A stretch of DNA of 64,000 bases from Desulfobacterales bacterium HSG2 (GTDB lineage Bacteria; Desulfobacterota; Desulfobacteria; Desulfobacterales; 4be13), in NCBI GenBank assembly GCA_030378035.1, contig JAUCGI010000008.1:1-64000 (forward strand), written 5' to 3'. Below are positions 41,015-64,000 of the stretch, in pieces (the first letter of the stretch is position 1; each line of letters starts with the position of its first letter). A program made the translations under genes and the position numbers. The notes beneath the pieces are model-generated. The model saw only the letters and a list, made by a program, of their open reading frames with translations, searched no databases and was not told the DNA's origin.

Positions 41015-42199
41015 TTATCCTATTATATTCGCTATGATATCCTCAAAAAGTGCGATTCTCCTCTCAAGATCATCTTGATGGATGTGCCTCTCACCTTTGA
41101 ACACATAGTAATTTGTCCTGTAAAGTTCTTCGAGACCATATTGAATTTTCTCACATGAGTCAAGAATCCGTTTCCTATTTTCGACATGCTGACTAAAAAC
41201 ATACATCATCGGATCATAGACCGCCATCGTCGCTCCTTTCCACCAAACCCATTCGTCATTCCAGGGATGCCTCAACCAAAACGCTCTTTCCCCAAAAGTG
41301 TCATAAACCAAACGGATTGTCTGCTCAAACAAATCCTCCAACTTTGTCAGCACCTCCTGAGAGAACTCCTGATTACCATGTCGGAGAAACTCATCCAAAT
41401 AATGTTTGAGAGACTCTCCCGGATGCATCAGTTCCCGTCGCTGTCTGTTTGCGAAAAATCGCAATACCAGTTCCACATCTTCCATTCTCTGGTAATGCTT
41501 ATTTTCAATTAATAATTCCTCATCATCTGTCTCCGCGATATTCCATGTGCTGCGTAAATATTTGTTGTGAGACAATTTACAACAGAGGTCGTTCAGCGGC
41601 CCTCTGAGAATGGCATTCCGGATTTCCTGGGGGGTGATCCTGACGTCCCCGCTGTTGATTCGCTCGAAGACCATATGTTTCAGTCCTTGCGCCTCGTTCT
41701 CATCTTTAGGTGTTTCATACAGCAAAATGACCGAGGAAAGATAGCGCCCGTCAATGCCCCGTTTTATCCGGTCAGGAATCTGTGAATATCTGCGTCCGTC
41801 AAGTTCCGGCCATTTTTCCAGTCCTTCCAAAACAAAATTGTCCTTGTAGAACTCATACACAGCATTAAGACGCTGAAAACCGTCCACGACTTCATAGTGT
41901 GAGGGGCGGTCTTCATAGAGAAAAATCGGCGGAACCGGCACGTTTATTATGAAAGACTCTATCAAATGAGACTTTTTCCTGTTGTGCCACCGATGTCGTC
42001 TCCGGAATTCCGGCTGTAATTCACAATCCCCCCTATCAAGCATGGCAATGATTCTCTTTAAAGGATGCCGCCCATCCATGGTCACAATTCTAATTTCGCC
42101 CTTCACATATTTCAGATTGATATCCTCATCGGACATCCAATCAGTGGCTTTTTCGTGACGCGTAAAAGTAAGCCTTTCATTTGGAAATAAAGACAACAT
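41015..42199 (-). CDS. DUF262 protein 1 (ParB/GmrS-like)
   Basis: 394 residues from the ATG with GGAGG 4-5 bases upstream; the longer reading from 42235 is rejected. DUF262 features: ELQPEFRRRHRWHNRKKSHLIESFI (substrate/nucleotide-binding arm) and YEVVDGFQRLNAVYEF, where the usual DGQQR is DGFQR. No DUF1524 HNH domain follows, unlike GmrSD. The C-terminal half (about 230-394) is shared with the two DUF262 genes upstream. It is next to the HEPN-like gene. Confidence 0.85.
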   Translation of the reverse strand: MLSLFPNERLTFTRHEKATDWMSDEDINLKYVKGEIRIVTMDGRHPLKRIIAMLDRGDCELQPEFRRRHRWHNRKKSHLIESFIINVPVPPIFLYEDRPSHYEVVDGFQRLNAVYEFYKDNFVLEGLEKWPELDGRRYSQIPDRIKRGIDGRYLSSVILLYETPKDENEAQGLKHMVFERINSGDVRITPQEIRNAILRGPLNDLCCKLSHNKYLRSTWNIAETDDEELLIENKHYQRMEDVELVLRFFANRQRRELMHPGESLKHYLDEFLRHGNQEFSQEVLTKLEDLFEQTIRLVYDTFGERAFWLRHPWNDEWVWWKGATMAVYDPMMYVFSQHVENRKRILDSCEKIQYGLEELYRTNYYVFKGERHIHQDDLERRIALFEDIIANIIG

Positions 42200-42254
42200 A
42201 TATCCTCCTTCTGTTTTTATGTGCTTAAACCTCAAACAGGAGAGGTAAATGAAC

Positions 42255-48379: not shown

Positions 48380-48531
48380 CATCCTTCATTTGTCGGTTTA
48401 CACTTTCGGGTGTTAAGTGAATTCTTTTTTGCTTCTTTGTGCCCTTTGTGCCTTTGTGTGAGATATAAAAATGCCGCCTGCTCTGATTGGAAAAAAGTGT
48501 AAACTACTTCCGGCGTTTATGAAGGATGCCC
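48380..48531. mobile_element. MITE-like element, copy C, overlapping an ATPase 3' end
   Basis: Same element as 46988-47127. Its terminal GGCATCCTTCATAAACG on the minus strand encodes the last residues (GHPS) and stop of the ATPase gene, so insertion replaced the original ATPase C-terminus and removed the start of the nuclease gene that followed. Confidence 0.75.
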
Positions 48532-49803
48532 AAAATCACCTCGCAAAATAAGCTCGGAAACGGAAATATCTTCAGTATCCTGAGCCTTGTCCGTATCATT
48601 TTCCGGCCGCATGTTTCCCCATGAGCACAGAGGCTCAATAACGGTTCCCTCGGATTCTTTGCGACAGACAAACAGATTCTCATCACAAAGCATGTCAGCC
48701 AGAATCGGAGTGTGTGTCGTGACAATCAGTTGTGTCCTGCCCGTTGCCGCGCGGGTCTCCAAGAGGTCTGCAATCATGCGTATTCTGCGGGGATGGACAC
48801 CGTTTTCAGGTTCTTCAAGTCCGAGCAGGGCGGGAGGCTCCTGTGAGCCGTTCAGGGCCAGCAGTCCAATAAGCCGCAGGGTTCCCTCGGACAGCACCCT
48901 GGTAGGAACAGGCGTCTCATTTTCCATGAGTCTGAGTTCGACCTCGCCGAGATCATTCGGTCCGACATCAATGCCTGTGACATTCGGGATAAACATGCGA
49001 AGCGCCTTTTCAATCGCGTTGAACTGATATTTGTTCTGTACGCGCAAGGTGTTCAGAAAAGAGGCAAGTTCGTTGCCCATGGGACCGATATTGCGGGTCT
49101 CTCTGATCGGACTGGGCGCACGCATCCGCTCCCGTGGCTCAAAATAGAAAAACGACCATCCGGCAAGTTCCTGACGCATGGCGGTCAGGTGCGGGTAAAG
49201 ATGCGGATAAAGGGGCACTGACAGGATGCTGTGATCCGGATGCTGATCATAACAGGTCTGATGGGCATGACCTTCCGTCCGCAAATACAACTGATCCCTT
49301 ATCTTTTCCAGAAACGGACGCCTTTTTCGGCTGACTTTTCCGTCTTTGTCCAGCGCGGCCAAGTATTCGTCAGTGACCCGCAGCTCGCCGGATTTCGGAA
49401 ACATTTCGATTTCAATGCGGTAGCGCAGATATTTTTCACGGACAGAAGTTTCATCATGCTTCAGGCCTGAGGGCAGCTCACATATCTGACGATTGACGGA
49501 TTCCGCGACAGCGTCAGAAAGTTCGACATCGGCCTCCATGCTGAGTGAAACAGTTTTCCGCGTGAGCAATCCCCTAATTCCCTCATTCCCGAACGTGAAA
49601 GATTCCAGAGGCCTGCCGCGATAAGGCGGCTCAAACGCGTCTTTAAGTGTGCGGCCGGCCGCCATCCCTGATAAAAGCTGTAAGGCATCCAGAAAATTGC
49701 TTTTTCCGGCCGCGTTGGCACCGAATAACACAGAAAGCGGGCTGAGACGCACATCAACGTCAATCAGCGATTTATAACCTTTAATTTTAATCTCTCTGAG
49801 CAT
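48517..49803 (-). CDS. AAA family ATPase (AAA21-like), 3' end altered by MITE
   Basis: 428 residues from the ATG with GGAG 10 bases before it; a GTG at 49821 is less likely. Walker A GANAAGKSNFLDA (near 30), signature-like RVLSEGTLRLIGLLAL, Walker B ALLGLEEPENGVHP (near 340) and IVTTHTPILADML. The final residues FGHPS come from a repeat element. It follows the DUF4276 gene by about 20 bases; its own nuclease partner is a stump at 48198-48376. Confidence 0.85.
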   Translation of the reverse strand: MLREIKIKGYKSLIDVDVRLSPLSVLFGANAAGKSNFLDALQLLSGMAAGRTLKDAFEPPYRGRPLESFTFGNEGIRGLLTRKTVSLSMEADVELSDAVAESVNRQICELPSGLKHDETSVREKYLRYRIEIEMFPKSGELRVTDEYLAALDKDGKVSRKRRPFLEKIRDQLYLRTEGHAHQTCYDQHPDHSILSVPLYPHLYPHLTAMRQELAGWSFFYFEPRERMRAPSPIRETRNIGPMGNELASFLNTLRVQNKYQFNAIEKALRMFIPNVTGIDVGPNDLGEVELRLMENETPVPTRVLSEGTLRLIGLLALNGSQEPPALLGLEEPENGVHPRRIRMIADLLETRAATGRTQLIVTTHTPILADMLCDENLFVCRKESEGTVIEPLCSWGNMRPENDTDKAQDTEDISVSELILRGDFGHPS

Positions 49804-49824
49804 CTGTTTCTCACTCCTCACTTC

Positions 49825-50427
49825 TTATTTCTCAGCTTTGCAGATGAAATATTGCCTCCCCTCATTTTCGGGAGACAATCCGTTCAGGCCTGTGACAAAA
49901 TGATTAAAGCTCTTTGAACGGTTGTTCGCCACATTCATGCAGGCGGAAATCTTCTCAGCGGTATCCAGTTTGGGCAAGACATCATATCCTTTCAACTCCG
50001 GAACAATTTGTCTGAGATGTTCAGATGGCTTTATTATTCCGTCTATGTTTCGGAATCTTTTCTTGTTCTGAAATTTTGCCGCCCTGAATCTCGGATAAGC
50101 CCGCTCTGTTGCCGCCATGTCTCCCAAAAACCATGCTTCCAACTCTCTGCAAACGATTCGGATCAGAACCTCACAACCTGCTCTCTCAGACAATTTCTTC
50201 AGCTTGTTTTTCAATTCAAAACAGTTATGGCTGTTCTGATCGTGCAGGATAACAATTGCGACGCCCGGCTGTCTGCTTAGTGTGGGAACAACCTTTCTGA
50301 TCGCAAGCTGCAAGTCCTCCTTTCCGTTATGCGACCTGATCTCATAACTTTCTCCGGGAATGATGATGGGAAGCAGGTTCTCCAGTGCCCGCTGCATGGA
50401 GCGTTCTTCAAGCATAAAATAAATCAT
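49825..50427 (-). CDS. DUF4276 family protein (TOPRIM-like)
   Basis: 200 residues from an ATG that overlaps the ATPase stop (ATGA); the reading from 50469 is rejected. IYFMLEERSMQRALENLLP at the N-terminus, IVILHDQNSHNCFELKNKL near residue 80 and RELEAWFLGDMAA near 115 match DUF4276, a TOPRIM-like fold with Glu, Asp and Glu as likely metal ligands. It is the partner of the frameshifted ATPase at 50424-51613. Confidence 0.85.
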   Translation of the reverse strand: MIYFMLEERSMQRALENLLPIIIPGESYEIRSHNGKEDLQLAIRKVVPTLSRQPGVAIVILHDQNSHNCFELKNKLKKLSERAGCEVLIRIVCRELEAWFLGDMAATERAYPRFRAAKFQNKKRFRNIDGIIKPSEHLRQIVPELKGYDVLPKLDTAEKISACMNVANNRSKSFNHFVTGLNGLSPENEGRQYFICKAEK

Positions 50428-51613
50428 CCCGGATTCGCTCCTCCCGCATAGCCATGCTGCCACAGCCACCCCAGCTCATTCCCGGCCTCAAAAAGCTCCG
50501 TCAGCATCCTGTCGTCCTGTGCGGGAATGATTTCCGCCTCTCCATTGTTTTTCCTCATAAAAAAGAGTTCCCTGATATCTATGGCATTGAGAAAGTCCGG
50601 GGAATGGGTGGAGACGAACACCTGCCCTCCTCTCACAGCATAATCCCTCAGTTCCTCGGCCAGTTCCGGCAGCAGCCCGGGGTGGAGGTGGGTTTCAGGC
50701 TCCTCGATGCAGAGCAGGGGATGAGGCTCCGGATCATGAAGCAGGATGAGATACGCGAACATTCTCAGCGTTCCGTCGGACATATTTCCTGAGACAAACG
50801 GATCCGCAAAAGGCCCGTCGCTGAACCTGAGCAGAATTTGCCCGGCCTCGTTCCGGATGGCCTCGACATTTTCAATCCCCGGGACGCTCCGGGCCATTTT
50901 CCTGAGAATCTCCTCAAACCGCTCAGGATGATTGTCGTGGATGAATTTGGCGACCTGGGCAATGTTCGCACCCGACGGGGAGAGATGTTCGTCAGCACCG
51001 ACCTTTCCGATCCTTTGCAGCGCCTCGTCATGAAAGTCGGACATCGCCCACCCTTCCAGCAGCTTCCGAAAGGAACTGATTGCCCTGAACCGCTGAAACT
51101 GCCCCAGCCCCTTGATCGCCAGGATATCCGGCGATTCCAGGATTTGTTCCTCCGTCTCCTCGGTTGCCCCTTTCTTTCCGTAATCCTCCTCGTTTCTAAT
51201 GACAGTTCCCTTCCCGTTGTGGAACTCCAGAAAATGCCACGGTCTGTCCTGCTGACCCCGGCGATATTTCAGAATCTCGGTCTCCGCATAAGCTCGGTTC
51301 TTTTCATGTCCGATCCTCAGAAAATAAGTCGCCAGAGGGTCCTTTTTCCGCCGGCATAACGGAATTTGATTTCGATTTCCACAAACGCATCCGGGCCGGC
51401 ACCCCGGAAGAGAAGTTCCCCGAACCCGCCCTCACGACTGACGGCCGCTGTGACATTGTTCCTCAGCGCGTCATTCAGAAAGGCAAATATCCTGAAGAAT
51501 GTCGTCTTTCCGGAACCGTTGGGGCCCACAAACACACTGAGCCGGGAAAGGTTTCCTGTCTCGGCGTTCCTGAATGCCCTGAAATTTTTCACTCGTAACT
51601 GTTCTATCTTCAT
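50424..51613 (-). pseudogene. AAA ATPase paired with DUF4276, one-base frameshift
   Basis: Start ATG with AAAGGA 8 bases upstream. KIEQLRVKNFRAFRNAETG, Walker A GPNGSGKTTFFRI, then the frame stops at 51317 after GGKRTLWRLIF. One extra A in the run at about 51340-51345 restores GGKKDPLATYFLRIGHEKN and the rest in one frame, through LLCIEEPETHLHPGLLPE and VFVSTHSPDFLNA to 50424, about 396 residues. Either a recent loss of function or a homopolymer error. Confidence 0.75.
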
Positions 51614-51635
51614 TTTCAACATCCTTTGGGCAGGG

Positions 51636-51734
51636 TTATCCTGCCAACTTCCAGTATTGTTCTATCTTCCCTCTGTTCTCACGGACACCAAAAAGTGAGG
51701 GATATCCTGTGCTTTTCTGATATATCTCATTGAG
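51636..51734 (-). pseudogene. Possible short gene stump
   Basis: An open frame without a start codon reads LNEIYQKSTGYPSLFGVREN, then RGKIEQYWKLAG, which looks like a protein end. It lies right after the truncated retropepsin of module copy 3 and before an ATPase start. It may be the far end of the small gene cut at 52618-52761. Confidence 0.3.
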
Positions 51735-52020
51735 TTAATATTCTCTTCAATCGTTTCTGCCATTCGAGTGATCTTTCAATCCGCTTTAATTGTGAATGAT
51801 TCGGTTGGTCCTCAATGGATGGCAACACATCTCCTCCGATCATGGACCATTCGGCCCCGGTGTCCAACAACGCGAAATAGTCCGATTCCAAACGCTCCAC
51901 CCGACATCTGACAGCCACCGTGACCGGCCATGAGTCTATCTTGAACATGGCCCGGAATGCTGCATTGCCGGTACTCCATATAATGTTATCCTCATCCGTC
52001 TGTTTGAACAACTGTTCCAT
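51727..52020 (-). pseudogene. Truncated retropepsin, module copy 3
   Basis: 97 residues. The first 60 align with copy 1 (WSTGNAAFRAMFKIDSWPVT, then LLDTGAEWSMIGG); after GGDV the sequence is unrelated and the flap region is lost. The catalytic DTG is kept. Six bases after the paired DUF5678-type gene. Confidence 0.7.
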
Positions 52021-52026
52021 GTTTTC

Positions 52027-52599
52027 CTACTTTCCGACTCGAAAGAACAATGTTCCGGTGAGTCTGCCGGATTTTTTCAATGTTTGATGCAGCTCCGCAT
52101 GACTTTCATGAGAGCCGAGCAACACGCCGTTTTTCAGGGCGATCCATTTGCCTTTGTATTTGTCAGCATTGTTTTCGATCCACAACATGTCTTTCCCGTG
52201 ATCTCCGTCTGCTGAGGCTTTTCCGACTCTGACCACAGGCTCGGCCAGCACCTTTTTCCAATAGTCAAGTTCGGCGGAGACCCCGTGCCGGATAGCGGAC
52301 ACAATCCTGCGGGCTTCCGACACACGGCTGGTCTCAATCAGCATCTTTATATGCTCACATATCCGCTCCGCATTTTCGGGTGTGGCCTCCCATTCCGTGT
52401 CATCGGACATTTCGGAGGCGGGCGGGTCTCCGGGAGCCTTTCCCAGGGGCACGACCGGACCGATCCACGGGCGGGCGGATGGCGTGTCTCTCCGCTGTCC
52501 GTCAGGGAACCTTTCCAATATCAGCGCGGCCGCGGCCTCCTGCTCGGCCGCTGGCAGCGCCCTGATTCTGTTTATTGCCTTCTCAAGAAGTCTGCTCAT
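52027..52599 (-). CDS. DUF5678-type protein, copy 3 (diverged)
   Basis: 190 residues, clearly related to copies 1 and 2 but diverged throughout (MSRLLEKAINRIRALPAAEQ; KYKGKWIALKNGVLLGSHES). AAGGAGA precedes the ATG, and the sequence upstream of this ribosome site is a foreign gene stump, so the module begins near 52617. Confidence 0.7.
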   Translation of the reverse strand: MSRLLEKAINRIRALPAAEQEAAAALILERFPDGQRRDTPSARPWIGPVVPLGKAPGDPPASEMSDDTEWEATPENAERICEHIKMLIETSRVSEARRIVSAIRHGVSAELDYWKKVLAEPVVRVGKASADGDHGKDMLWIENNADKYKGKWIALKNGVLLGSHESHAELHQTLKKSGRLTGTLFFRVGK

Positions 52600-52617
52600 T
52601 TTTCTGTCTCCTTATTC

Positions 52618-52761
52618 TTATTCTTTAGTATTAGTAATTTTAGGACCGATATACAATATAAAGAGGGTCCCGGCTTTATATACTGTCTCAAGGGCTCTTA
52701 TAAAATTCTGAATACTTTCATACTGCCCCTCCAATGAAAGCTCATTTGTATAAAGTTGCAT
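52618..52761 (-). pseudogene. N-terminal stump of an ATPase partner gene
   Basis: 47 residues starting 3 bases after the DUF3696 ATPase stop: MQLYTNELSLEGQYESIQNF, IRALETVYKAG, then an abrupt tail. The natural N-terminus and tight spacing mark it as the third gene of the DUF262-ATPase operon, cut off where the retropepsin/DUF5678 module begins. No family name is recognised. Confidence 0.6.
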
Positions 52762-52764
52762 TGT

Positions 52765-53955
52765 TTAAAACGCCCAGCCTGCAAAGTATTCGGAGTCTTT
52801 GTCAAACTGATCAAAGAAGTCCTTCGGCCAGTCATCCAAATTTCCCTCGTTGTCTATTAGCAGCGTCTGAACCTGAGCCAAATTTTCAGCTTCCGCTTTC
52901 TCACGCTGACGAAAAAAGTGAATCGCCACCTGTTCCTTTGTAAGTTCGGAACCTTTGTCTCTGACAGCTCTTCGGACGCCATTCAGTATGTGATCGCTGT
53001 GAGTCTCTGCGATGATTTGGATACCTGCCGAGGCAACCCGGGACAGAAACAGCCCCATGTTTGACTGTGCGGCCGGATGAAGATTCGATTCGGGATTTTC
53101 AATCAGTATGATATCCCCTCTGTCGGCGTTCAGGCATGCCGTTATAATGGGCATGACATGTATTAATCCGTACCCGACATTCTGAGGTCTGTGATACTCA
53201 CCGGATTCTGTCGTGCGAAAAGAGAGTATTACCTGATTCGCATTGGCCGCCTGTTCGATTTTAAACCCCGACCCCGGGAAAAAACGGTTCAGATATGCCT
53301 CTGTCTGTCTCTGCAATTTGAATGACTCACCGGGAATTCTCAGTTTCTCATTAACCGCCTTGCTGCCGTGTTTCAATAAGAACCAGGGAGCATATTCCCC
53401 TTTTGACCCGACTGTGCGGTATCTGTCGGAAGTATGCGCCTTATATGTTTCCTGCGGCGGTAATCTGTCAGAGGAGATATAGGTGAGTCTGTATATTTTA
53501 TCTGTTATCTCGGATGAGCCGATTTCAAATGACTCCGGCATCAGTCTGTAAATTATCTCATTATGAGACGTTGCAGCGCATTTTTTCTCAATATTCAGTC
53601 TGAGGTCAGAAAACCGTATCTCCTCAAAGGGAATGAAATAAGCCAGACGGTCTTCACTGACTGCCTTCCAGAGATATCGGTATCTGTCAGTCTCAACACC
53701 TATAATCACACGATGCCGCCCTCTGCTTTTATCAATGACATCAACCACAGTTCCCAAAGAGAGAGAATCGCCGTTCAGGATAATGCTCTGACTCCACTCG
53801 TTATGCAACATGGTCTGATTCAGCAGAGTCAGTGCCTGCAAGATGCTTGATTTGCCGGAAGCGTTAATACCACTTAGCAATGTTAAATTTTTCAGTGGCA
53901 GATGCAGCTTTTCAAAGCATTTAAAATATTCCATAATGACAGTGTTTAAAATCAT
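52765..53955 (-). CDS. DUF3696 AAA ATPase in DUF262 operon
   Basis: 396 residues. Walker A SGINASGKSSILQ (near 28), Walker B DIILIENPESNLHPAAQ (near 280; the usual Glu-Glu/Asp-Glu is Glu-Asn), IIAETHSDHILNGVRR and the C-terminal DUF3696 motif NLDDWPKDFFDQFDKD. It follows the DUF262 gene by about 70 bases. Together they form an ATPase/DUF262 pair with a third, truncated gene behind. Confidence 0.88.
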   Translation of the reverse strand: MILNTVIMEYFKCFEKLHLPLKNLTLLSGINASGKSSILQALTLLNQTMLHNEWSQSIILNGDSLSLGTVVDVIDKSRGRHRVIIGVETDRYRYLWKAVSEDRLAYFIPFEEIRFSDLRLNIEKKCAATSHNEIIYRLMPESFEIGSSEITDKIYRLTYISSDRLPPQETYKAHTSDRYRTVGSKGEYAPWFLLKHGSKAVNEKLRIPGESFKLQRQTEAYLNRFFPGSGFKIEQAANANQVILSFRTTESGEYHRPQNVGYGLIHVMPIITACLNADRGDIILIENPESNLHPAAQSNMGLFLSRVASAGIQIIAETHSDHILNGVRRAVRDKGSELTKEQVAIHFFRQREKAEAENLAQVQTLLIDNEGNLDDWPKDFFDQFDKDSEYFAGWAF

Positions 53956-54024
53956 CTCATTGCCTCATCCACAGCCTGTTTTGTCAGTTCGAATCTTTTT
54001 CGGACATTCTCTGTCCGATCAGCA

Positions 54025-55041
54025 TTAACCATGAAAAGGGTCGTGCTTTCGGTAAATTCCCTGTTTTTTTCTTAAATTTTCAAATGCATCGGCTATTTTG
54101 TTCTTTTTTTCCTTAATTTTGCTGAACGGATAATCAGACAGGATAACTGAGAGAACATCAAAATAAGCCAGACTGATTTTGTATCTCTTTTCCTCATATA
54201 TCTGAAAGGCTTTCTCTCCGAACACTTCGCAGTTGTTCCTCATGCTGTTATCCAGTTTTTTTGCGAGATTGTCAAGCTCGTTTTCGGTCATTTCATTCAT
54301 ACGGATAAGTGTCTCCGCCAGAAACTGATCCATATTCCCGCCGTATTTGTCAGTTCCCATTAGGGTGAAAGCACAGAAACGGTTCACGGCCTCTCTGTCG
54401 AGCATGTTCTTCTGTAAAAAAACACGTTTGCCGAAACGGATGCATTTTAAAAAATATGTTTTTTCCGACTGTTCTCTGAGCCAGCGTGTTGCGGGGCCGT
54501 TGTGGAGTGCGTTGCGCATCTGCTGTCTGGTAAGCGGTCGCCCGCTGTTCACCCGTTCAAATATGTCCAGTTTGGCCTGTTCCGGTACTTTGTGATCGAT
54601 CAGATACAGTATTAACCGGGTATCTTCCAAACGGTTTTGTAATTTGGGTGGCAGATCGCCAAACTTTTTTCCCAGCAGCGGGCTGCCGTTTGCCAGACCC
54701 CGTAATGCAAATTTGTCGGCAAGATAGTTTTTCAATGCTGTCAGCCGCTGTTGTCCGTCAACAACAACGATATTACCGTTCTCCTGCTCCGCAAAGTAAA
54801 AGACCGGAAGGGGGATGCGCATCAGGCAGGATTCAATCAGTTTGCTTTGACGCTGACAGTTCCAGGCAAAATCTCTTTGGATGTCGGTATCCAGTATGAA
54901 TTTGGGCTGTCCCGGTTCTGGCTGGTTTATTCCTCGGATGACTTCGAAGACTGATCTGTTTTCGGGGCGGATTATGAGACTGTCGAGGGGGTGGTTGCCC
55001 AGAGTGTCAGTGCCTTCCTGAAATTCAATATTATTTTTCAT
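54025..55041 (-). CDS. DUF262 protein with canonical DGQQR motif
   Basis: 338 residues. ILDTDIQRDFAWNCQRQSKLIES is the N-terminal arm and NIVVVDGQQRLTALKNYL the canonical nucleotide-binding motif, unlike the DGFQR/DGPQR of the triplet at 41-45 kb. FERVNSGRPLTRQQMRNALHNGP is also typical. No DUF1524 domain. AGAGGAAA precedes the ATG. It is coupled upstream to a short open frame. Confidence 0.88.
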   Translation of the reverse strand: MKNNIEFQEGTDTLGNHPLDSLIIRPENRSVFEVIRGINQPEPGQPKFILDTDIQRDFAWNCQRQSKLIESCLMRIPLPVFYFAEQENGNIVVVDGQQRLTALKNYLADKFALRGLANGSPLLGKKFGDLPPKLQNRLEDTRLILYLIDHKVPEQAKLDIFERVNSGRPLTRQQMRNALHNGPATRWLREQSEKTYFLKCIRFGKRVFLQKNMLDREAVNRFCAFTLMGTDKYGGNMDQFLAETLIRMNEMTENELDNLAKKLDNSMRNNCEVFGEKAFQIYEEKRYKISLAYFDVLSVILSDYPFSKIKEKKNKIADAFENLRKKQGIYRKHDPFHG

Positions 55042-55237
55042 GGTTATTTCCTCTTTGCATATCCTCTTCTTTTGCCGGGGAAGTCTTTCCTTGTCTGTGC
55101 ATCAGTCTGGCGTATTCAATCCCGACTTTGTCGTTTTTTGGGTTTAGTTGATAAGCTTGTTCTGAAAAAGAGGCTGGCTCTTCAGAACGGTCTAGTTTTC
55201 TCAGGACATGGGCGGTTCTTTCACAGGTTTTGAAGGG
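55031..55237 (-). pseudogene. TPR-like fragment overlapping the DUF262 start
   Basis: An open frame of about 68 codons without ATG reads ERTAHVLRKLDRSEEPASF, then SEQAYQLNPKNDKVGIEYA and RLMHRQGKTSPAKEED. The AYQLNP...YARLMHRQGK pattern is that of a TPR repeat. Its stop overlaps the DUF262 start. It may be the last part of a lost upstream gene. Confidence 0.4.
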
Positions 55238-55270
55238 TTAGGTTTCATTCTTCAGCTACGGGACTTTTGT

Positions 55271-56938
55271 TTAATTTATATTAACTGCAAACTCATATGG
55301 CTGTGAGCATTGAAGAAAAGAATGCTGTGTATCATTATAAAAATAATAAAGTTTAATCAGAAATTCGCAAAAGTAATTCCCTTTGTTTAGATGCAGTTCT
55401 TCATAAGGTATAAATAAATCAGCCTCATCATAAAAGATATCGTTTTCTGAAACGAAATATTTACCAACAGAAACCTGACCGTCTGTAGATGTAAATAACC
55501 CATTGAAATCTTTTAACACCATCCAATCTTTAAGGGAGAAATATGCAGCAACACCACATTGAAAGCCATTTAAATTCTCAGTTTTAAATTTAATACGAAT
55601 CTTTAACCCCTCATTATCATTTTGATAAACACCGGGTTCTGGTGACACATCTATAATCTTTCCTTTAATATATCGAGTTTTATTTAATTTAGGGATTTTT
55701 TTCAAATCCGCTATTAAATCTTCTTTTTCTGAAGTTGAAAGATCAAGATACTCAAGAGACATCTTCTCTATAGCTTGTGATACTTTTTTTATCGCCAATG
55801 TATTACGTTGCGAAAAAGTAATAGAATCGCTTAAACTTTGATAAAGATTTTTAACTCCTTTTATATTTGAATAATCATATGGCAGAGAAAAATCTTCATA
55901 CCCTGCATATATACGGCCTATCTGCTTTGAATTTTCTCTGAGCTTTTTTATCCTAATTATCCATTTATCAAGATAGTCGTCTTTTACTTTTATAATATCT
56001 TTTTCCGACAGCCATTTTTGAATAGTTTCGGCCTGTTTCTTCATCGTTATCAACTTTTCATCTGTAGTGACAGATTTAAAGCCTTCGATAAACTGGCTGA
56101 AATTATCATTAAGGTATTCTTCAACTATCTTCCATACAGACAGCGGACACCAACGTCCAAAAGAAGTTCGGATTGTATATTTACTTGTAAATCCTTGGTA
56201 AAATTTTTTAGGAAGATGGGAGATATCTATATATTGTTTGGTCAAGTTAGCTTGCTCAGAGTCAAATTCTAATTTGGTAAGAAGCGAATCATTAGACTCT
56301 GTATTTTTGAGTTTTTTATATTGAACTCCGATCAAATTTTTGAGATTTATATCCCACTTATTTAAAAAACGTCCATGAGATAATAAATAATAACAAAATA
56401 ATTCTTCGTTCTCATATTTAATTTCTTCATTTAAATCTATCGCATTATTATCCCATAATGAAAAATATAAATCCACGAATTGTTTGATGTGCTGTTGTTT
56501 TTGTGTTATGTAACCCAGCTCTGTATTCACGCCATTGAATCCTCGGAGAGTGAGGTTAGCTGATGTAATCATAACAAATCCGCTTTCTTTTAAGTCATCA
56601 TATAGGGCATATCCTTTTGCATGAACCATTTCGCCTTTGGTTCCTGATATAACTCTCCATTGAAAATTCACCTTTTGTTCCTTATAGTATTGTTCTAATT
56701 TGTGAAGTGTTTGCTTAGACCCCAATTTATATATTTCAGATACATTGAACATAAGAAATACATCCGATATGATTTTCGGACTAAAATCTTGAATAACCTT
56801 CTTTACTAAATCAAAATTTATATAGCAACTAAGAAGGAGTACCTGATTAGTTGAGGTATTATTTAAGTTAGATACAACACTTTTTAAAGAATCTCTGACA
56901 CTACATGTCCTATCATGTAAAAATATATCATCAAACAT
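55271..56938 (-). CDS. Phospholipase D-like protein, probable nuclease
   Basis: 555 residues. The N-terminal third is a PLD-like domain with one HKD-type site: MVHAKGYALYD then FVMITSANLTLRGFNGVNTELG (near residues 125-165). The C-terminal two thirds are of unknown fold. Similar proteins are restriction-type nucleases that dimerise to make an active site. AGAGG precedes the ATG. Its DNA is more A/T-rich than the neighbours, suggesting separate arrival. It stands alone, with no ATPase or methylase next to it. Confidence 0.75.
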   Translation of the reverse strand: MFDDIFLHDRTCSVRDSLKSVVSNLNNTSTNQVLLLSCYINFDLVKKVIQDFSPKIISDVFLMFNVSEIYKLGSKQTLHKLEQYYKEQKVNFQWRVISGTKGEMVHAKGYALYDDLKESGFVMITSANLTLRGFNGVNTELGYITQKQQHIKQFVDLYFSLWDNNAIDLNEEIKYENEELFCYYLLSHGRFLNKWDINLKNLIGVQYKKLKNTESNDSLLTKLEFDSEQANLTKQYIDISHLPKKFYQGFTSKYTIRTSFGRWCPLSVWKIVEEYLNDNFSQFIEGFKSVTTDEKLITMKKQAETIQKWLSEKDIIKVKDDYLDKWIIRIKKLRENSKQIGRIYAGYEDFSLPYDYSNIKGVKNLYQSLSDSITFSQRNTLAIKKVSQAIEKMSLEYLDLSTSEKEDLIADLKKIPKLNKTRYIKGKIIDVSPEPGVYQNDNEGLKIRIKFKTENLNGFQCGVAAYFSLKDWMVLKDFNGLFTSTDGQVSVGKYFVSENDIFYDEADLFIPYEELHLNKGNYFCEFLIKLYYFYNDTQHSFLQCSQPYEFAVNIN

Positions 56939-57060: not shown

Positions 57061-59535
57061 TTAGACATTCCCATATTTTTTAACTAACTCCACTAATCTC
57101 ACAATAGCATTAATCAGCCGACTGTCCTTCCCTTCAAAATATTTCATTTTGGCAAGGACTGATCTGGGATTCTCTTTTAAGAGGGAAAAGGGAAACTTGT
57201 CTTGGTGGCTTACAATGTCCAAATCTTTGGTAATCAGAAAACCTTCTTTTGCAGAGCCGAAAATAGTATAATCCCATAAAAGCAAAAGGTTATCCGCCAA
57301 ATGCCCTGCATAAGCTTGCTTGGCATTTTCTAGTTTCTCATAACTTAGATACATGTTATCATCCGCTATCCACAATTCTCCCAATGTCCTGCCATAATTA
57401 CCATAGCCTAAACTGGCTTGATGTATTGAAGAATCTATTTTTTTTGTATCTTTAATAAAGGAATAAATAGCCATAGCTGTCAAACTCTTATTTTTTATGG
57501 CTCTATTTAGGTAAATATTAGCACGATCAATATTTTTTTCTTTATAATAACAATGCATTGCTATCTTTATCATAGCATCTATATTATTATTTTCACATGC
57601 TTTTTTATACCATTTTAATCCTTCAACTTCCTTTTCTTTTACCCCTATACCTCTGTAATAGCACAATCCAACAAGATATTGTCCCGTACTATCATTTTGT
57701 TCAGCGGATTTCATAAAATATTTAAAAGCTTGCCTTCCGCTTTTATCAACATATATACCCTTATCATAGAAAAGTCCAATCATATTCAAAGCTTGTGCAT
57801 AGTCTTGTTCAGCGGCTTTGTAATACCATGTAAATGCCTTTCCATAGTTTTTTCCAACATAATTTCCGGAATAATACATACCACCTAAAGCGGATTGGGC
57901 AGTAGCATAGCCCTGTTCAGCGGCTTTTGAGTACCACTCAAAAGCTTTCTTGCAATCCTTTCCAACATACCATCCAAAACGATGCATAGCACCCAAGTTG
58001 CATTCAGCTTTTGCAAGCCCTTGTTTAGCAGCTTTCAAATACCATTCAAACGCTTTTTTTAAATCTTTCTCAACATATTCTCCATAATGATACATATAAC
58101 CCAATCTGTTTTCTGCTTTATCAAGACCTTGTTCAGCAGCTTTTAAAGACCATTCAAATATTTTTTTGTAGTCCTTCTCAACATACTCTCCTTTCCAATA
58201 CATATCACCCAGCTCAAATTGGGCCTTTGCATGGCCCTGTTCAGCAGCTTTTGAGTACCAGTCCAAAGCTTTCTGTTGATCCTGATCTGCTTCATCATCT
58301 CCATCAAAATATTTTTTACCCAGTATAAACTGCGCCTCTGCATCACCTTGTTCAGCAGCTTTCAAGTACCAGTCAAAATCTTTATCTTCCTCTGGGATGT
58401 CTGAATCTGCCGATGCTGACATGGAATCAGATTCTTCTTCAAACAGATTTTTCGTCAGTTTCATACAATTCAGCAATTCCACAGCAAGATCACGGAGCGG
58501 TATGGCTATCTCCAAATCAATGCCCTGCTTTCTGATAAAAGTTGTCAGAACCTTCTTGATAGCTTCTTTTTTACCAATATTCAACTGCTCGCTCAGAGCG
58601 TCAATCGCTGCCGAACTGCCTACATAGCTGTCAGCAATCTGATACAAAGAGGTGAAGCTCGGATCCGAAACATTCTCCAGAATGAATGATGCCGGTATGG
58701 GATTATCCGGTTCTCCGGAATCCAGGCGGAGAAGTTCCTGATATTGTGAAAACGAGGCATCTTCTATTTCATCTATCAGTTCATCAACAAAGTCGGCAAG
58801 CCTGATTTTCTCTTTCCACGGCAGCCCCGCCTCTTTGACGGCTTTCTGGAGATATTTTATCTCCGTGATATTCCAGGCATCCTCCTTGAGAGACAGAAAA
58901 TCCCTGATCACTCTGAGCAGTCTGAAATGAGGTGGAAATTTTTCATCATAATCGTAAGTATCTATCGTCAGCAGCCAGCCGTGAATATTTGTGGAGACTT
59001 CCAAATTTCCGACCCTGTTTTCCAGATCAAGAAATCTTTTACAGACCTTTTCCGCCATTCTGTCAATTGCATTTTTTGTCTCCTCCTGCTCCACCGCCAG
59101 TGACATCAGATTGTTTTTGACCGTGATCACAGAGTGCGCCAGTAACAGATCACGATCCTGAAGCAGATCAAGATATCGCCAGGCGTATTTCTGCATTTCT
59201 ATGAGGTCTTTCTGGTTTGCCCTTTGCATCTCCCCCTGCTTACCGCAAAGTTTGTGCCAGCATCTTTTGAAGAAGCCCTGTCCCGCATGATCGTCCAGAC
59301 GATCTTCAGTACACGACAGAAGACGTGCCGCGTCCAATGCCATCTGCTCTGCTTCGGTGGCTCTCGTTTGCGCCCGGACCAATCTGGGTTCAATGGATCG
59401 GTCTATTGTCTCAAGCTCATCAGGAGTACAATCAAAAATCCCCTCTCCTGATTTTTTCTCTTTCAAATCCGAACCGCACTGCATACAAAAACGCCCTTTT
59501 TCATATTCAGTGTTGCACTTTTCACAAATCCGCAT
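57061..59535 (-). CDS. Zinc-ribbon protein with Sel1 repeats, paralogue 1
   Basis: 824 residues. Zinc ribbon at 1-23 (CEKCNTEYEKGRFCMQCG), a shared helical region to about 385 (GFFKRCWHKLCGKQGEMQRA; LLLAHSVITVKNNLMSLAVE), an acidic linker, then about nine Sel1-type repeats (WYLKAAEQGDAEAQFILG) from 390 to 690. The last 130 residues (YTIFGSAKEGFLITKDLDI) resemble a PH-like domain. Sel1 repeats bind proteins; the molecule is probably a cytoplasmic scaffold. GGAG precedes the ATG. The role is unknown. Confidence 0.78.
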   Translation of the reverse strand: MRICEKCNTEYEKGRFCMQCGSDLKEKKSGEGIFDCTPDELETIDRSIEPRLVRAQTRATEAEQMALDAARLLSCTEDRLDDHAGQGFFKRCWHKLCGKQGEMQRANQKDLIEMQKYAWRYLDLLQDRDLLLAHSVITVKNNLMSLAVEQEETKNAIDRMAEKVCKRFLDLENRVGNLEVSTNIHGWLLTIDTYDYDEKFPPHFRLLRVIRDFLSLKEDAWNITEIKYLQKAVKEAGLPWKEKIRLADFVDELIDEIEDASFSQYQELLRLDSGEPDNPIPASFILENVSDPSFTSLYQIADSYVGSSAAIDALSEQLNIGKKEAIKKVLTTFIRKQGIDLEIAIPLRDLAVELLNCMKLTKNLFEEESDSMSASADSDIPEEDKDFDWYLKAAEQGDAEAQFILGKKYFDGDDEADQDQQKALDWYSKAAEQGHAKAQFELGDMYWKGEYVEKDYKKIFEWSLKAAEQGLDKAENRLGYMYHYGEYVEKDLKKAFEWYLKAAKQGLAKAECNLGAMHRFGWYVGKDCKKAFEWYSKAAEQGYATAQSALGGMYYSGNYVGKNYGKAFTWYYKAAEQDYAQALNMIGLFYDKGIYVDKSGRQAFKYFMKSAEQNDSTGQYLVGLCYYRGIGVKEKEVEGLKWYKKACENNNIDAMIKIAMHCYYKEKNIDRANIYLNRAIKNKSLTAMAIYSFIKDTKKIDSSIHQASLGYGNYGRTLGELWIADDNMYLSYEKLENAKQAYAGHLADNLLLLWDYTIFGSAKEGFLITKDLDIVSHQDKFPFSLLKENPRSVLAKMKYFEGKDSRLINAIVRLVELVKKYGNV

Positions 59536-59699
59536 GAATACATCTCCATTTCAAAGTCTATAGTATTTTTCTATAAGGAATAACCTGATATGGCTTTTCA
59601 ACATGATTCTTCAATTGTGAGTCCGACATAGCCCCGGTCAGTGGAAGTGATTCGGTGACAGTCGCCTCCATCAAGCTATTCAAAGTATTCGTTCATCAC

Positions 59700-61835
59700 T
59701 TACGGTATCCATAAAGTCTGTTTTATACTATCGGCCAAACTTATAGCTGTAAAAACGATACTTCCCCTAACATAGATATCCACTATTACTTCTAAACCTT
59801 TATCCATAAGCGGGATACTTTCAAAAAACAACTTCCCTATTATTTTATTCTTTTTCATATCAGAATGATTACCTTCCAATAATATAACTTCTGTTATAGC
59901 TTGACTACCCCAAATAATCGGATAAAGTATTAATGATTTTTTGGTCGGCTTTGTTGTGTAGCGTTCAATAATTTTTTGGGGACTGTTATCTCCGACTTTT
60001 ATCAGTATATCCAAAGTTGTTATGTCTAATAATAGAACATTTTTTATATCTCCTCGATGCACCCCATACTGTATTGATGCTCCAATTGCTGACGGTGATC
60101 CTTCTTTATCATCATCCCATATCTTCAATTCTCCGTTAAGATTATCTTTGATGATATTCAATATTAAATCTGACAAGTTACCCTGAGCATAGAATAGAAT
60201 ATCATCAATATCAGAAGTCAAGATACCGCATGATTCAAGCGTATCGAGAAATAATTTTTTTATCTCATCTTCAGCATTCAGAATTTCTGATATATCAATA
60301 TTTGAAACGGATATTACTTCATATACGCCGGCTTCCATATCAATAAGAGCTATATCTATATTATCGTTATCTAACTCGCATACAAAAGTTACACCATATT
60401 TATTGTACTTATGACCATAGGCAAGGCCAGCAAGAACAGGGGATTCAACGATTAGGTGTACTTGTATTCCCCATTTACTTAATAAATAGCATATATTTCG
60501 ACGCATGAATCTGTCAAAGTAAACTGGCACTGCTAAAACGATATCTTTTCTCATAAAATTACTCGATACAGACTCCGCCAATATAGACTGAGCCTCCGCA
60601 TCTCCCTGCTCCGCCGCTTTCAAATACCACTTAAAAGTTTTCTCCTCCTCTGGAATATCTGAATCAGCCGATGCTGAAGTGAAATCAGATTCTTCTTTCT
60701 CATGAGGCTGTTGAAAGTTTTGTTCATTATTAAAACTTTCAAACAGTTTTTTCGTCAGTTTCATACAGTTCAGCAATTCCACAGCAAGATCACGGAGCGG
60801 TATGGCTATCTCCAAATCAATGCCCTGCTTTCTGATAAAAGCTGTCAGAACCTTCCTGACCGCCTCTTTTCTGCTGATATTCAGCTCCTCGCTCAGAACA
60901 TCAATCACCGCCGAACTTCCTGTGTAGCTGTCAGCGATCTGATACAGAGAGGTGAAGCTCGGGACCGAAACATTTTCCAAGATGAATGATGCCGGTATGG
61001 GACTACCCGGTTCTCCGAAATCCAGGAGGAGAAGTTCCTGATATTGTGAAAACGAGCTATCTTCTATTTCATCTGTCAGCTCACAGACAAAATCGGCAAG
61101 CCTGATTTTCTTCTTCCACGGCAGACCCGCATCTTTGACAGCCTTCTGAAGATACTTTATCTCCGTGATATTCCAGTCATCCTCCTTGAGAGACAGAAAG
61201 TCCCTGACCACTCTGAGCAGCCTGAAATGGGGCGGAAATTTCTCATCATAATCATAGGTTTCTATGGTCAGCAGCCAGCTATGAATATTTGTGGCAGCCT
61301 CCAGGACCCCGGCCCTGTTTTCAAGTGCGACAAACCTTTTATAGACCTTTTCCGCCATTCTGGCAATCTCATTTTTTGTCTCCTCCTGCTCCACCGCCAG
61401 TGTCATCAGATTGTTTTTAACCGTGATCACAGAGTGCGCCAGTAGCAGATCACGATCCTGAAGCAGATCAATATATCGCCAGGCATATTTCTGCATTTCT
61501 ATGAGGTCTTTCTGGTTTGCCCTCTGCATTTCTCCCTGTTTACCGCAAAGTTTGTGCCAGCATCTTTTGAAGAAGCCCTGTCCCGCATAATCGTCCAGGC
61601 GATCTTCAGTACACGACAGAAGACGTGCAGCGTCCAATGCCATCTGTTCCGCTTCGGCAGCTTTTGTCTGCGCCCGGACCAGTCTGGGTTCAAGGGATCG
61701 GTCTATTGTCTCAAGCTCATCAGGAGTACAATTAAAAATCCCCTCTCCTGATTTTTTCTCTTTCAAATCCGAACCGCACTGCGTACAAAAACGCCCTTTT
61801 TCATATTCAGTGTCGCACTTTTCACAAATCCGCAT
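59700..61835 (-). CDS. Zinc-ribbon protein fused to degenerate Hsp70-like region, paralogue 2
   Basis: 711 residues. The first 395 are nearly the same as paralogue 1, ending in a single Sel1 repeat. From about 425 an Hsp70-like region follows: IVLAVPVYFDRFMRRNICYL and VESPVLAGLAYG match the IxVPAYF and NEPTAAALAYG motifs, SAIGASIQYGVHRGDIKNVLLLDITTLDILIKV matches the AxAIGAAxQGGVL-GD-K-VLLLDVTPL segment, and a substrate-domain-like beta region ends it. The first ATP-binding lobe (DLGTT) is missing and DLGGGT is replaced by ELDNDNID, so ATPase activity is unlikely. It may bind peptides or partners without cycling. Confidence 0.8.
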   Translation of the reverse strand: MRICEKCDTEYEKGRFCTQCGSDLKEKKSGEGIFNCTPDELETIDRSLEPRLVRAQTKAAEAEQMALDAARLLSCTEDRLDDYAGQGFFKRCWHKLCGKQGEMQRANQKDLIEMQKYAWRYIDLLQDRDLLLAHSVITVKNNLMTLAVEQEETKNEIARMAEKVYKRFVALENRAGVLEAATNIHSWLLTIETYDYDEKFPPHFRLLRVVRDFLSLKEDDWNITEIKYLQKAVKDAGLPWKKKIRLADFVCELTDEIEDSSFSQYQELLLLDFGEPGSPIPASFILENVSVPSFTSLYQIADSYTGSSAVIDVLSEELNISRKEAVRKVLTAFIRKQGIDLEIAIPLRDLAVELLNCMKLTKKLFESFNNEQNFQQPHEKEESDFTSASADSDIPEEEKTFKWYLKAAEQGDAEAQSILAESVSSNFMRKDIVLAVPVYFDRFMRRNICYLLSKWGIQVHLIVESPVLAGLAYGHKYNKYGVTFVCELDNDNIDIALIDMEAGVYEVISVSNIDISEILNAEDEIKKLFLDTLESCGILTSDIDDILFYAQGNLSDLILNIIKDNLNGELKIWDDDKEGSPSAIGASIQYGVHRGDIKNVLLLDITTLDILIKVGDNSPQKIIERYTTKPTKKSLILYPIIWGSQAITEVILLEGNHSDMKKNKIIGKLFFESIPLMDKGLEVIVDIYVRGSIVFTAISLADSIKQTLWIP

Positions 61836-61956
61836 GGATACATCTCTCTTTCAAAGTCTATAGCATTTTTAACCTATCAGCGGCCATAGAGACTTCCGTT
61901 ATTCTCTTTTCAGGCCCTAATCATCGTTTCGGTCGCACTTGTCAAAACTTATTTGG

Positions 61957-64000
61957 TCATGCAGTAAAAAGAAAATTGTCGAAACGATAATCAAGACCTT
62001 TTTTTCCTTTTTTACCTTTCTTAGCTAACTCTGCCAATCTTACAATAGCGTTAATCATCCGACTGTCTTTCCCTTCAAAATATTTCATTTTGGCGATGAC
62101 CGATCTGGGATTCCCGTTTAAAAGGGAACGAGGAAATGTGTCTCGGTGGCTTATAATGTCCAAATCCTTGGTAATTAGAAAGCCTTCTTTTGCAGAACCG
62201 AAGATAGTGGCATCCCACAGAAGCTGGGCTCTATTCGCCAAATTTCCTGCATAAGCTTGTTTGGCATTCTCCAATTTTCCATAATTTTTACACCCCATAT
62301 TATCGCCTACTATCCATAAGTCACCAGCAGCTCTGCCATAATCACCATATCCCAAATTGGCTTCTGATGAAGAAAACCCTTTGGTATCTTCAATAAATGA
62401 ATAGATTGCCATAGCTGTTAAATTACCTTTTTCTATGGCTTCCTTTAAATAAGACTTTGCAAGATCAATATTTTTTTCCTCACAATAGTAATATCTTGCT
62501 ACCCTTATTATAGCTGTTATACTATTATTGTTAAGAGCCCTTTTATACCATTTTAAAGCTTCAAAGTTATCTTTCTCTACTCCTTCACCATAATAATAAC
62601 ACTGTCCAACAAGGCATTGCCCACAATCATCATTTTGTTCAGCGGATTTCATGTAATACCTAAAAGCCTGTTTTTCATTTTTATCAACATATATACCCAA
62701 ATTGTAAAAAGCTCCGATCATAGTTATAGCAAGTGCAAAATCTTGATCAGCAGCTTTTGATAACCATTCAAACGCCTTTCTGACATCTTTCTTGTCCAAA
62801 TAATACATGCTTAACGCGCATTGTGCCTCAGCAAGCCCCTGATCCGCAGCTTTTGAGAGCCATTTAAAAGCCTTTCTGTCATCTTTTTTAAAGTAATACA
62901 TTCCGCCTAACGCACATTGTGCCTCAGCAAGACCCTGATCCGCAGCTTTTGAATACCATTCAAACGCATTCTTCTTATCATCTTTCTCGGAATACACCTC
63001 ACCTAACTCAAATTGAGCTTTGGCATGACCTTGTTCAGCCGCTTTTGAATACCATTTGAAAGCTTTTTGTTGATCGGCCTTTACTTCATCTCCGTCAGAG
63101 TATTTTTTACCCAATATAAACTGCGCCTTCGCATCCCCCTGCTCCGCCGCTTTCAAATACCACTTAAAAGTTTTCTCCTCCTCTGGAATATCTGAATCAG
63201 CCGATGCTGAAGCGAAATCAGATTCTTCTTTCTCCTGAGGCTGTTGAAAGTTTTGTTCATTATTCAAACTTTCAAACAGCTTTTTCGTCAGTTTCATACA
63301 ATTCAGCAATTCCACAGCAAGGTCACGGAGCGGTATGGACACATCCAAATCAATGCCCTGCTTTCTGATGAAAGTTGTCAGAACTTTCCTGATCGCCTCT
63401 TTTCTGCTGATATTCAACTCCTCGCTCAGAACATCAATCACCGCCGAACTTCCTGTGTAGCTGTCAGCAATCTGATACAGAGAAGTGAAGCTCGGGACCG
63501 AAACATTCTCCAGGATGAATGATGCCGGTATGGGATTACCCGGTTCTCCGAAATACAGGCGGAGAAGTTCCTGATATTGTGAAAACGAGCTATCTTCTAT
63601 TTCATCTGTCAGCTCACAGACAAAATCGGCAAGCCTGATTTTTTTCTTCCACGGCAGACCCGCCTCTTTGACAGCTTTCTGGAGATACTTTATCTCCGTG
63701 ATATTCCAGTCATCCTCCTTGAGAGCCAGAAAGTCCCTGACCACTCTGAGCAGCCTGAAATGGGGCGGAAATTTTTCATCATAATCATAGGTTTCAATGG
63801 TCAGCAGCCAACTGTGAATATTTGTGGCAACCTCCAGGACTCCGACCCTGTTTTCGAGTGCGACAAACCTTTTATAGACCTTTTCCGCCATTCTGTTAAT
63901 TGCATTTTTTGTCTTCTCCTGCTCCACCGCCAGTGTCATCAGATTGTTTTTAACCGTGATCACAGAGTGTGCCAGTAACAGATCACGTTCCTGAAGCAGC
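61957..64000 (-). CDS. Zinc-ribbon/Sel1 protein, paralogue 3 (5' end outside window)
   Basis: Open to the right edge; the first visible codons (LLQERDLLLAHSVITVKNN) align with residue 125 of paralogue 1, so about 125 residues with the zinc ribbon lie outside. The visible part has the shared helical region, about eight Sel1 repeats (some short, YYFKKDDRKAFKWLSKAADQ) and the same PH-like tail (ATIFGSAKEGFLITKDLDII). It differs from paralogue 1 in repeat number and order. A Met at 63963 is internal and not the true start. Confidence 0.8.
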   Translation of the reverse strand, partial: LLQERDLLLAHSVITVKNNLMTLAVEQEKTKNAINRMAEKVYKRFVALENRVGVLEVATNIHSWLLTIETYDYDEKFPPHFRLLRVVRDFLALKEDDWNITEIKYLQKAVKEAGLPWKKKIRLADFVCELTDEIEDSSFSQYQELLRLYFGEPGNPIPASFILENVSVPSFTSLYQIADSYTGSSAVIDVLSEELNISRKEAIRKVLTTFIRKQGIDLDVSIPLRDLAVELLNCMKLTKKLFESLNNEQNFQQPQEKEESDFASASADSDIPEEEKTFKWYLKAAEQGDAKAQFILGKKYSDGDEVKADQQKAFKWYSKAAEQGHAKAQFELGEVYSEKDDKKNAFEWYSKAADQGLAEAQCALGGMYYFKKDDRKAFKWLSKAADQGLAEAQCALSMYYLDKKDVRKAFEWLSKAADQDFALAITMIGAFYNLGIYVDKNEKQAFRYYMKSAEQNDDCGQCLVGQCYYYGEGVEKDNFEALKWYKRALNNNSITAIIRVARYYYCEEKNIDLAKSYLKEAIEKGNLTAMAIYSFIEDTKGFSSSEANLGYGDYGRAAGDLWIVGDNMGCKNYGKLENAKQAYAGNLANRAQLLWDATIFGSAKEGFLITKDLDIISHRDTFPRSLLNGNPRSVIAKMKYFEGKDSRMINAIVRLAELAKKGKKGKKGLDYRFDNFLFTA

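Follow-up and report, generated by a model that had tools for sequence, protein, structure and literature searches.

In EAD-coupled conflict systems, as presented in the available excerpts of PMC7159879 and PMC8195603, a constant helical adaptor couples effectors with sensor or signalling domains encoded in adjacent genes, and both sides can be exchanged. EACC1 systems are two-gene systems in the available excerpt of PMC7159879, pairing a small EACC1 protein that has a single transmembrane segment with a gene of caspase type. The locus described here was found in Desulfobacterales bacterium HSG2 (GenBank assembly GCA_030378035.1, contig JAUCGI010000008.1) and was analysed as a window of 64,000 nucleotides (positions 1 to 64,000 of the forward strand), in which three tandem genes, termed A1, A2 and A3, encode a common N-terminal domain (N-domain) joined to different C-termini. 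At a probability of roughly 60%, A1-A3 are sensor/adaptor subunits of a modular, immune-like conflict system with a single effector, situated in a defence island. The analysis shows directly the operon layout, the constant N-domain, a tail common to unrelated effector bodies, the exchanged C-termini and the separate histories of the parts; docking, silencing, sensing, cell damage and a role against phages are inferred.

Three tandem genes with a constant N-domain

A1, A2 and A3 are all on the minus strand and, by the open reading frame (ORF) list, are transcribed in the order A1, A2, A3, with intergenic spacers of 121 nt (A1-A2) and 164 nt (A2-A3). A3 (57061..59535, 824 residues) was divided, using its ORF, Pfam Sel1 matches and the N-domain profile, into a Cys4 ribbon, the constant N-domain (residues 30-366, 58438..59448 by alignment; profile match at C49:58429-59439), Sel1 repeats with a 108-nt period (57451..58377, from a DNA repeat family and Pfam) and a C-terminal tail domain (57064..57408, from DNA repeats and protein comparison). 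A2 (59700..61835, 711 residues; ORF and Pfam) contains the ribbon, the N-domain (residues 30-366, 60738..61748, from alignments, the profile and a structural model), a remnant of the first Sel1 unit, about half a unit long, at the fusion point (60573..60635, from junction DNA comparison) and a truncated Hsp70-like part (59703..60572). A1 is cut by the window edge (61957..64000) and has the same parts as A3: the ribbon, the N-domain (in-window portion 63271..64000, from DNA repeats and the profile), Sel1 repeats and the tail domain (62017..62352). Leaders of 33 nt on the minus strand precede A3 (59538..59570) and A2 (61838..61870); the two match at 30 of 33 positions, and the leader is the start of the duplicated unit.

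A reading made from the letters alone (the sequence-only reading) had described three tandem paralogues with constant N-termini and exchanged C-termini, and the three ORFs bear this out. At the DNA level, repeats in 300-nt blocks (89% identity to the reference) link the N-terminal regions of the three genes, and the N-domain, about 335 helical residues long, is in the other two proteins 88% and 93% identical to that of A2. Extension past the right edge, proposed there for counting copies, completed A1 from contig C49 of the same genome, where it encodes 803 residues and begins with GTG at C49:64368 (L007:5957-8368; L numbers denote loci), and gave a total of three, with no further N-domain copy found by protein and profile searches of this assembly (72.6% complete). 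A longer array was rejected: the contig goes on with a partner gene, then genes for CHASE2 and TPR-CHAT proteins.

Of the zinc ribbon and helical region proposed for the N-termini, the second was upheld by an AlphaFold2 model of A2 residues 1-366, which is helical (predicted local distance difference test, pLDDT, 85.1; predicted template modelling score, pTM, 0.82); the ribbon is visible by eye as CxxC...CxxC within the first 20 residues of A1-A3 but scores under Pfam cut-offs. Pfam supported all three C-terminal assignments, with Sel1 in A3 (E 7e-61) and in the in-window part of A1 (E 4e-44) and HSP70 in A2 (E 3.3e-21). The nine Sel1 units in A3 and eight in A1 were counted by eye, and Pfam gives 7 stretches in each. 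The tail domain common to A1 and A3 was confirmed as such (208 nt at 85% DNA identity; 77% amino acid identity over 111 residues), while its earlier label, PH-like, was left unconfirmed by Pfam (best match PH_PKH3_C, E 0.12) and by a PDB search, which gave no match.

The Hsp70 match of A2 holds for a portion of the protein only. The region aligns solely to DnaK residues ~145-226 and 319-495, including the substrate-binding beta domain; nothing in it corresponds to the N-terminal portion that binds ATP, to an internal block or to the lid. Its start falls midway through a Sel1 unit common to A1, A2 and A3. These three truncations and the mid-repeat start are what would be expected if A2 were a decaying copy in a neutral tandem duplication, in which fusion with part of an Hsp70 cost the gene its Sel1 repeats and no functional diversification followed. 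Such decay is very improbable, given that the A2 ORF is intact across 711 codons, that its N-domain evolves at a ratio of nonsynonymous to synonymous substitutions (dN/dS) of 0.21-0.29 in pairs with A2, and that its Hsp70-like part shares no more than 38% identity with the Hsp70 proteins of the 20 genomes searched, a divergence that marks it as old and not as recent debris. The genome's own DnaK was rejected as a recently captured source, the identity being just 36%.

Separate histories within the array

Comparison of substitution patterns in the constant and variable parts, called for in the sequence-only reading, separated the two. Between A1 and A3, 23 of 131 four-fold degenerate sites differ up to residue 395 (18%) and 38 of 90 beyond it (42%; Fisher p 1e-4); the best break falls at residue 389, and one equally strong was obtained in 10 of 5000 shuffles. 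Synonymous divergence (dS) rises from 0.30 over residues 1-395 to 0.6-1.8 in the blocks that follow. All three genes have a higher G+C content at third codon positions (GC3) in the N part (48-52%) than in the C part (27-31%), and N-domain dN/dS is 0.20-0.29 across the three pairs. By these measures the constant and variable parts of the array have different histories. The grouping of the copies also changes within the N part: sites in codons 1-85 favour A2+A3 (18 vs 10), and sites elsewhere favour A1+A2 (84 vs 21; chi-square p 4e-6, with the boundary set after viewing the data), which fits gene conversion. The simplest account suggested by these patterns is that the N parts were homogenised by gene conversion and the C-termini came from other, more AT-rich sources, with codon-usage effects as an alternative.

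An upstream partner gene with a conserved tail

The partner gene, P0010 (492 residues; C49:64386-65864, L007:8386-9864), lies beyond the window and ends 17 nt 5′ of A1. The sequence-only reading had likened the array to cassettes that diversify by recombination, such as recognition proteins; with this gene directly upstream, A1-A3 look like sensor/adaptor subunits of one effector and not like a recognition cassette standing on its own. In P0010, which matches no Pfam family, a PD-(D/E)XK-like region is combined with a hydrophobic segment rich in glycine and with a C-terminal tail of ~45 residues that is helical and conserved. PD-(D/E)XK nucleases are marked by D and (E/Q)xK on neighbouring strands of an alpha-beta-beta-alpha core, and D115, Q129 and K131 are invariant across 7 aligned partners. 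In the model of P0010 (pLDDT 50), residues 36-145 alone are usable, and the D/QxK pattern is seen in that part; no Pfam or usable Foldseek match was obtained for the fold (best Foldseek E 0.024, with a meaningless root-mean-square deviation, the model being poor).

Of the 21 tabulated loci, 20 have an ORF on the same strand whose end lies -4 to +32 nt from the N-domain gene; the spacer of L029 is -86 nt, using a start chosen in this analysis. The table omits L022 (upstream ORF without the tail), L026 (contig begins inside the gene) and L075 (N-domain within a long fused ORF). The partners share ~45 C-terminal residues ending AIxx[IL], with A and I invariant in 15 aligned tails, and [AK][IL]xx[IL]-COOH ends 19 of the 21 upstream genes vs 4 of 2120 other ORFs (a motif picked after viewing the tails). 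A profile built from 7 tails of PD-(D/E)XK type was run against 2141 ORFs and recovered 6 of 8 Treponema partners of DUF1232 or DUF697-like type at E 4.5e-5 to 5.4e-4; of the other two, L058 scored 0.012 and L059 3.2, and the best non-member 0.53. The reciprocal profile recovered 3 of the 7 PD-type tails at 3.1e-4 to 0.0013, gave L027 0.25 and L020 (the same as L023) 1.0, and did not list L065 and L066. When the last 62 residues of P0010 were ranked against 869 ORF C-termini of the same loci, ranks 1-16 were all upstream genes, itself included, with tails in register on five body types, and the first unrelated ORF came at rank 17. The DUF726 partner and the 205-residue L060 partner, which gave no useful E-value with the tail profile, were recovered by this ranking alone (16th and 11th of 869). 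All tail profiles were built without L018, L019, L029, L060, L061 and the DUF726 partner.

Run on 17 genomes, the tail profile detected the known partner in all but G414, the G485 match being weak, and hit one further place, at E 0.013. The profile itself had been built with 15 of those partners and was bound to recover them; what it does tell is that, beyond that single hit, nothing else matched, so the tail goes together with the N-domain gene. A tail found just with N-domain genes, in a fixed adjacent pair with short spacers, would also suit a toxin-immunity pair, in which the partner is the toxin, the N-domain proteins are antitoxins and the variable C-termini are minor or unrelated cargo. 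We consider this quite improbable: a single toxin would not need three antitoxins, the effector gene comes first here, and the C-termini are large, of recognition type and recur independently.

The partners at L024:4284-5789 and L025:8484-9989 are near alike except for a short N-terminal block that differs sharply, that of L025 not having the AEExH-type motif; this looks like a block exchange.

Exchange of sensor C-termini and effector bodies

The outer ends of both proteins vary across loci. N-domain C-termini with a Pfam type are Sel1 (window, L057), Hsp70-like (window), FGE-sulfatase/C-lectin (L022, L026) and RCC1 (L027); a propeller-like C-terminal region was recognised by eye in L018, L019, L023, L065 and L066, with no Pfam match in those scanned. 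Most Treponema N-domain genes end in a zinc ribbon (by eye), and there are further C-termini of no known type. Thus classified, the same N-domain bears unrelated C-termini across genera. Partner bodies are PD-(D/E)XK-like with a glycine-rich segment in the window's system, L018, L019, L023, L024, L025, L027, L029, L061, L065 and L066; DUF1232 in six Treponema loci (Pfam-confirmed for L031 and L057); DUF697-like in L055 and L059 (Pfam hit for L055 weak); a 205-residue protein in L060; and DUF726 in Vibrio (Pfam 1.5e-21). Mapped on a 24-row N-domain tree, partner type requires at least 5 changes and C-terminus type at least 10. The clearest partner swap is between L055 and L056, whose adaptors are 79% identical over 384 residues and whose partner bodies have no similarity; their partner tails are 60% identical over 43 residues despite the dissimilar bodies.

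The proposal of a cassette diversified by recombination is, as a whole, partly supported. Separate histories and unrelated C-termini across genera stand; ongoing shuffling was not seen, with no exchange between the nearest available relatives, no close relative with the array and just three copies. The nearest pairs elsewhere have C-termini of the same kind (Cronobacter, 91% identity in the N part and 77% in the C part; L024/L025, 93% and 84%). The fixation of C-termini in relatives, which was to speak against exchange, is thus seen there at species-level distance and not at genus-level distance.

Several arrangements of the same parts were seen elsewhere. In Treponema, ribbon-Sel1 and ribbon-FGE genes lie 3′ of an N-domain gene ending in a ribbon, sometimes as tandem paralogues; those of ribbon-Sel1 type at L056:1286-3884 and L058:4530-6873 form another array with a constant front. 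A ribbon-ribbon-Sel1 protein in a genome of the window's order (L090:1360-3012) ends in a relative of the A1/A3 tail and has no N-domain. On a Moraxella plasmid (L075:2-3271), the N-domain (E 9e-19) lies in one long ORF that crosses the start of the record, together with a hydrophobic region and a part that by eye is dynamin-like; a dynamin-family gene follows this ORF.

Distribution of the N-domain and genomic neighbourhood

The N-domain and partner families gave no match in the Pfam, NCBIfam or PADLOC scans made, and no fold relative of the N-domain could be named (best Foldseek E 0.34; best VIA Z 7.0 over 94 residues). Relatives of the N-domain occur in 9 loci of the genome collection and on plasmids (3 records with A2 as query, plus a Selenomonas plasmid via an Arcobacter protein query). 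Carriers number 3 of 96 related genomes and 2 of 395 across the phylum (own included in both), 8 of 274 in the Treponema family, 3 of 199 in the Desulfovibrio family, 2 of 104 in the Arcobacter family (one weak and short), 1 of 200 in the Acetobacter family and 1 of 11 in the family of G414. An effector-like gene followed by an N-domain gene is found in proteobacteria, Treponema, desulfobacteria, Arcobacter and Selenomonas. Overall, the N-domain family is scarce and scattered, yet its taxonomic range is wide. A phage origin was rejected, as neither the phage collection nor the viral contigs held relatives of the N-domain, and the contigs held none of the partner.

On the 3′ side of A3 lie genes of defence type, all on the minus strand: a PLD/NgoFVII-like gene (55271-56938; Pfam), an NsnA-like GmrSD gene (54025-55041; PADLOC 2.7e-94) and an NsnB-like AAA gene (52765-53955; PADLOC 9.6e-102), beyond which is an ATPase gene whose best PADLOC match is HEC-01A. 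With DUF4276 and a split AAA_15 gene (50424-51044 and 51317-51622), these form a dense run at 48517-56938, and two more GmrSD_N-domain genes (41015-42235 and 43520-45259) widen the defence island leftwards. Upstream of the partner are the CHASE2 protein and the TPR-CHAT (caspase-like) protein (L007:10301-15601, C49:66301-71601), the TPR-CHAT gene being ~3 kb 5′ of the partner and outside the operon. WYL regulators lie near the pair in Cronobacter (annotated; Pfam for L018), L024, L066, L027, L029 and L065, and L025, by its listing, has a close relative of the L024 WYL gene; the stretches covered for the window, L023 and L061 showed no recognisable WYL gene. HTH_3 regulators adjoin five Treponema pairs. 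Weak PADLOC hits were BnzA on the A3 tail (7.7e-4), PtuA on the Sel1 repeats of A3 (0.0044) and A1 (0.07), and PDC-S29 on the L055 partner (2.8e-4). No reverse transcriptase turned up among the scanned window genes, in a survey that included no search aimed at diversity-generating retroelements.

Sel1 and Hsp70 modules commonly serve scaffolding and folding, and hydrophobic segments are present in partners of both the PD-(D/E)XK-like and DUF1232 types, so that the operon could instead be a housekeeping or stress scaffold whose protein-handling modules assemble or control a membrane protein outside defence. That role is unlikely in view of the patchy spread (2 of 395 and 8 of 274 genomes, as above), the plasmid copies, the defence-gene neighbours, the WYL regulators and an exchange at both ends unlike that of housekeeping genes.

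Proposed mechanism and its weighing

If A1-A3 are sensor/adaptor subunits of a conflict system, their constant N-domain would bind the tail of the partner by physical docking and hold the effector silent. Each variable C-terminus, either a Sel1 solenoid with its tail domain or the Hsp70 substrate-binding half, would sense its own invader-linked target, and this recognition would be the trigger that frees the effector; once freed, it may damage DNA or membrane, a toxicity to the cell that would abort infection and give the system an anti-phage role. Fusions and separations of the parts suggest that these work jointly, short of proving that they bind. A broader proposal, held tentatively and at a little under even odds, is that this is a widespread and previously undescribed immune module, in which a docking tail on interchangeable effectors meets a constant adaptor domain on interchangeable sensors, and that the window holds three parallel receptors, one of them derived from the Hsp70 substrate-binding half, wired to one effector.

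Several observations weigh against the sensor/adaptor interpretation. P0010 is suggested to be a PD-(D/E)XK-like, nuclease-like protein by a motif and a partial model, and the label leans on what we take to be the PD-(D/E)XK motif. The nuclease-like front of the partner is also found on other C-termini, in plasmid genes of Polaromonas (L073:3878-5845) and Acinetobacter (L074:3977-5808), with neither the tail nor an N-domain nearby. DUF697 on the L055 partner scores under its Pfam cut-off. The window-tail ranking placed L056 at 34 and the Cronobacter loci L019 and L018 at 38 and 79, and did not return L029 and L061 among the 869 ORFs; the divergent N-domain gene L022 follows an ORF without the tail. 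PADLOC-DB 2.0.0 has no match for the N-domain or the window partner, and the defence role is therefore by association only.

If the docking pair is real, the ~45-residue tail would serve as a tag for finding new effectors of this class and the constant N-domain as bait for finding sensors, and the three-gene array would make the addition of sensors to one effector, as a widening of immune recognition, testable.

Comparison with known systems

Searches of the open-access part of PubMed Central (PMC) turned up no description of this system. The comparisons below refer to the available excerpts of the cited papers. As in EAD systems, a constant adaptor stands between exchangeable parts, and FGE and Sel1 domains occur in EAD systems too (PMC7159879, PMC8195603). 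The helical model of the N-domain given above matches the character of an EAD. Typical EADs are smaller than the ~335-residue N-domain. No EAD was among the Pfam hits on A1-A3 at E up to 1, the coverage of all EADs by Pfam not having been checked, and Pfam scans covering A1-A3, the partner gene and 9 neighbouring genes showed no MoxR, vWA, VMAP, GTPase or peptidase core in the operon. EAD systems follow a homotypic rule, unlike the partner here, which bears a short unrelated tail and no second N-domain (PMC7159879, PMC8195603); for this reason the locus was not filed as an EAD system. With EACC1 systems it shares a two-gene layout in which one partner is constant and the other protein varies strongly in its C-terminal region, but no EACC1-caspase pair turned up in the operon, EACC1 itself not having been searched for (PMC7159879).

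STAND/Avs receptors likewise have variable C-terminal ligand-binding repeats with the effector at the other end, but in one protein built around an NTPase, whereas effector and sensor are separate genes here (PMC10907252). Pfam identified no NTPase family in A1-A3 or the partner. Against solved DnaK/Hsp70 structures, the C-terminus of A2 aligned including the substrate-binding beta domain, with ATP-binding lobe I, the middle block and the lid missing. Should the tail and the N-domain indeed dock, the pair would parallel the EAD/death-domain principle in heterotypic form.
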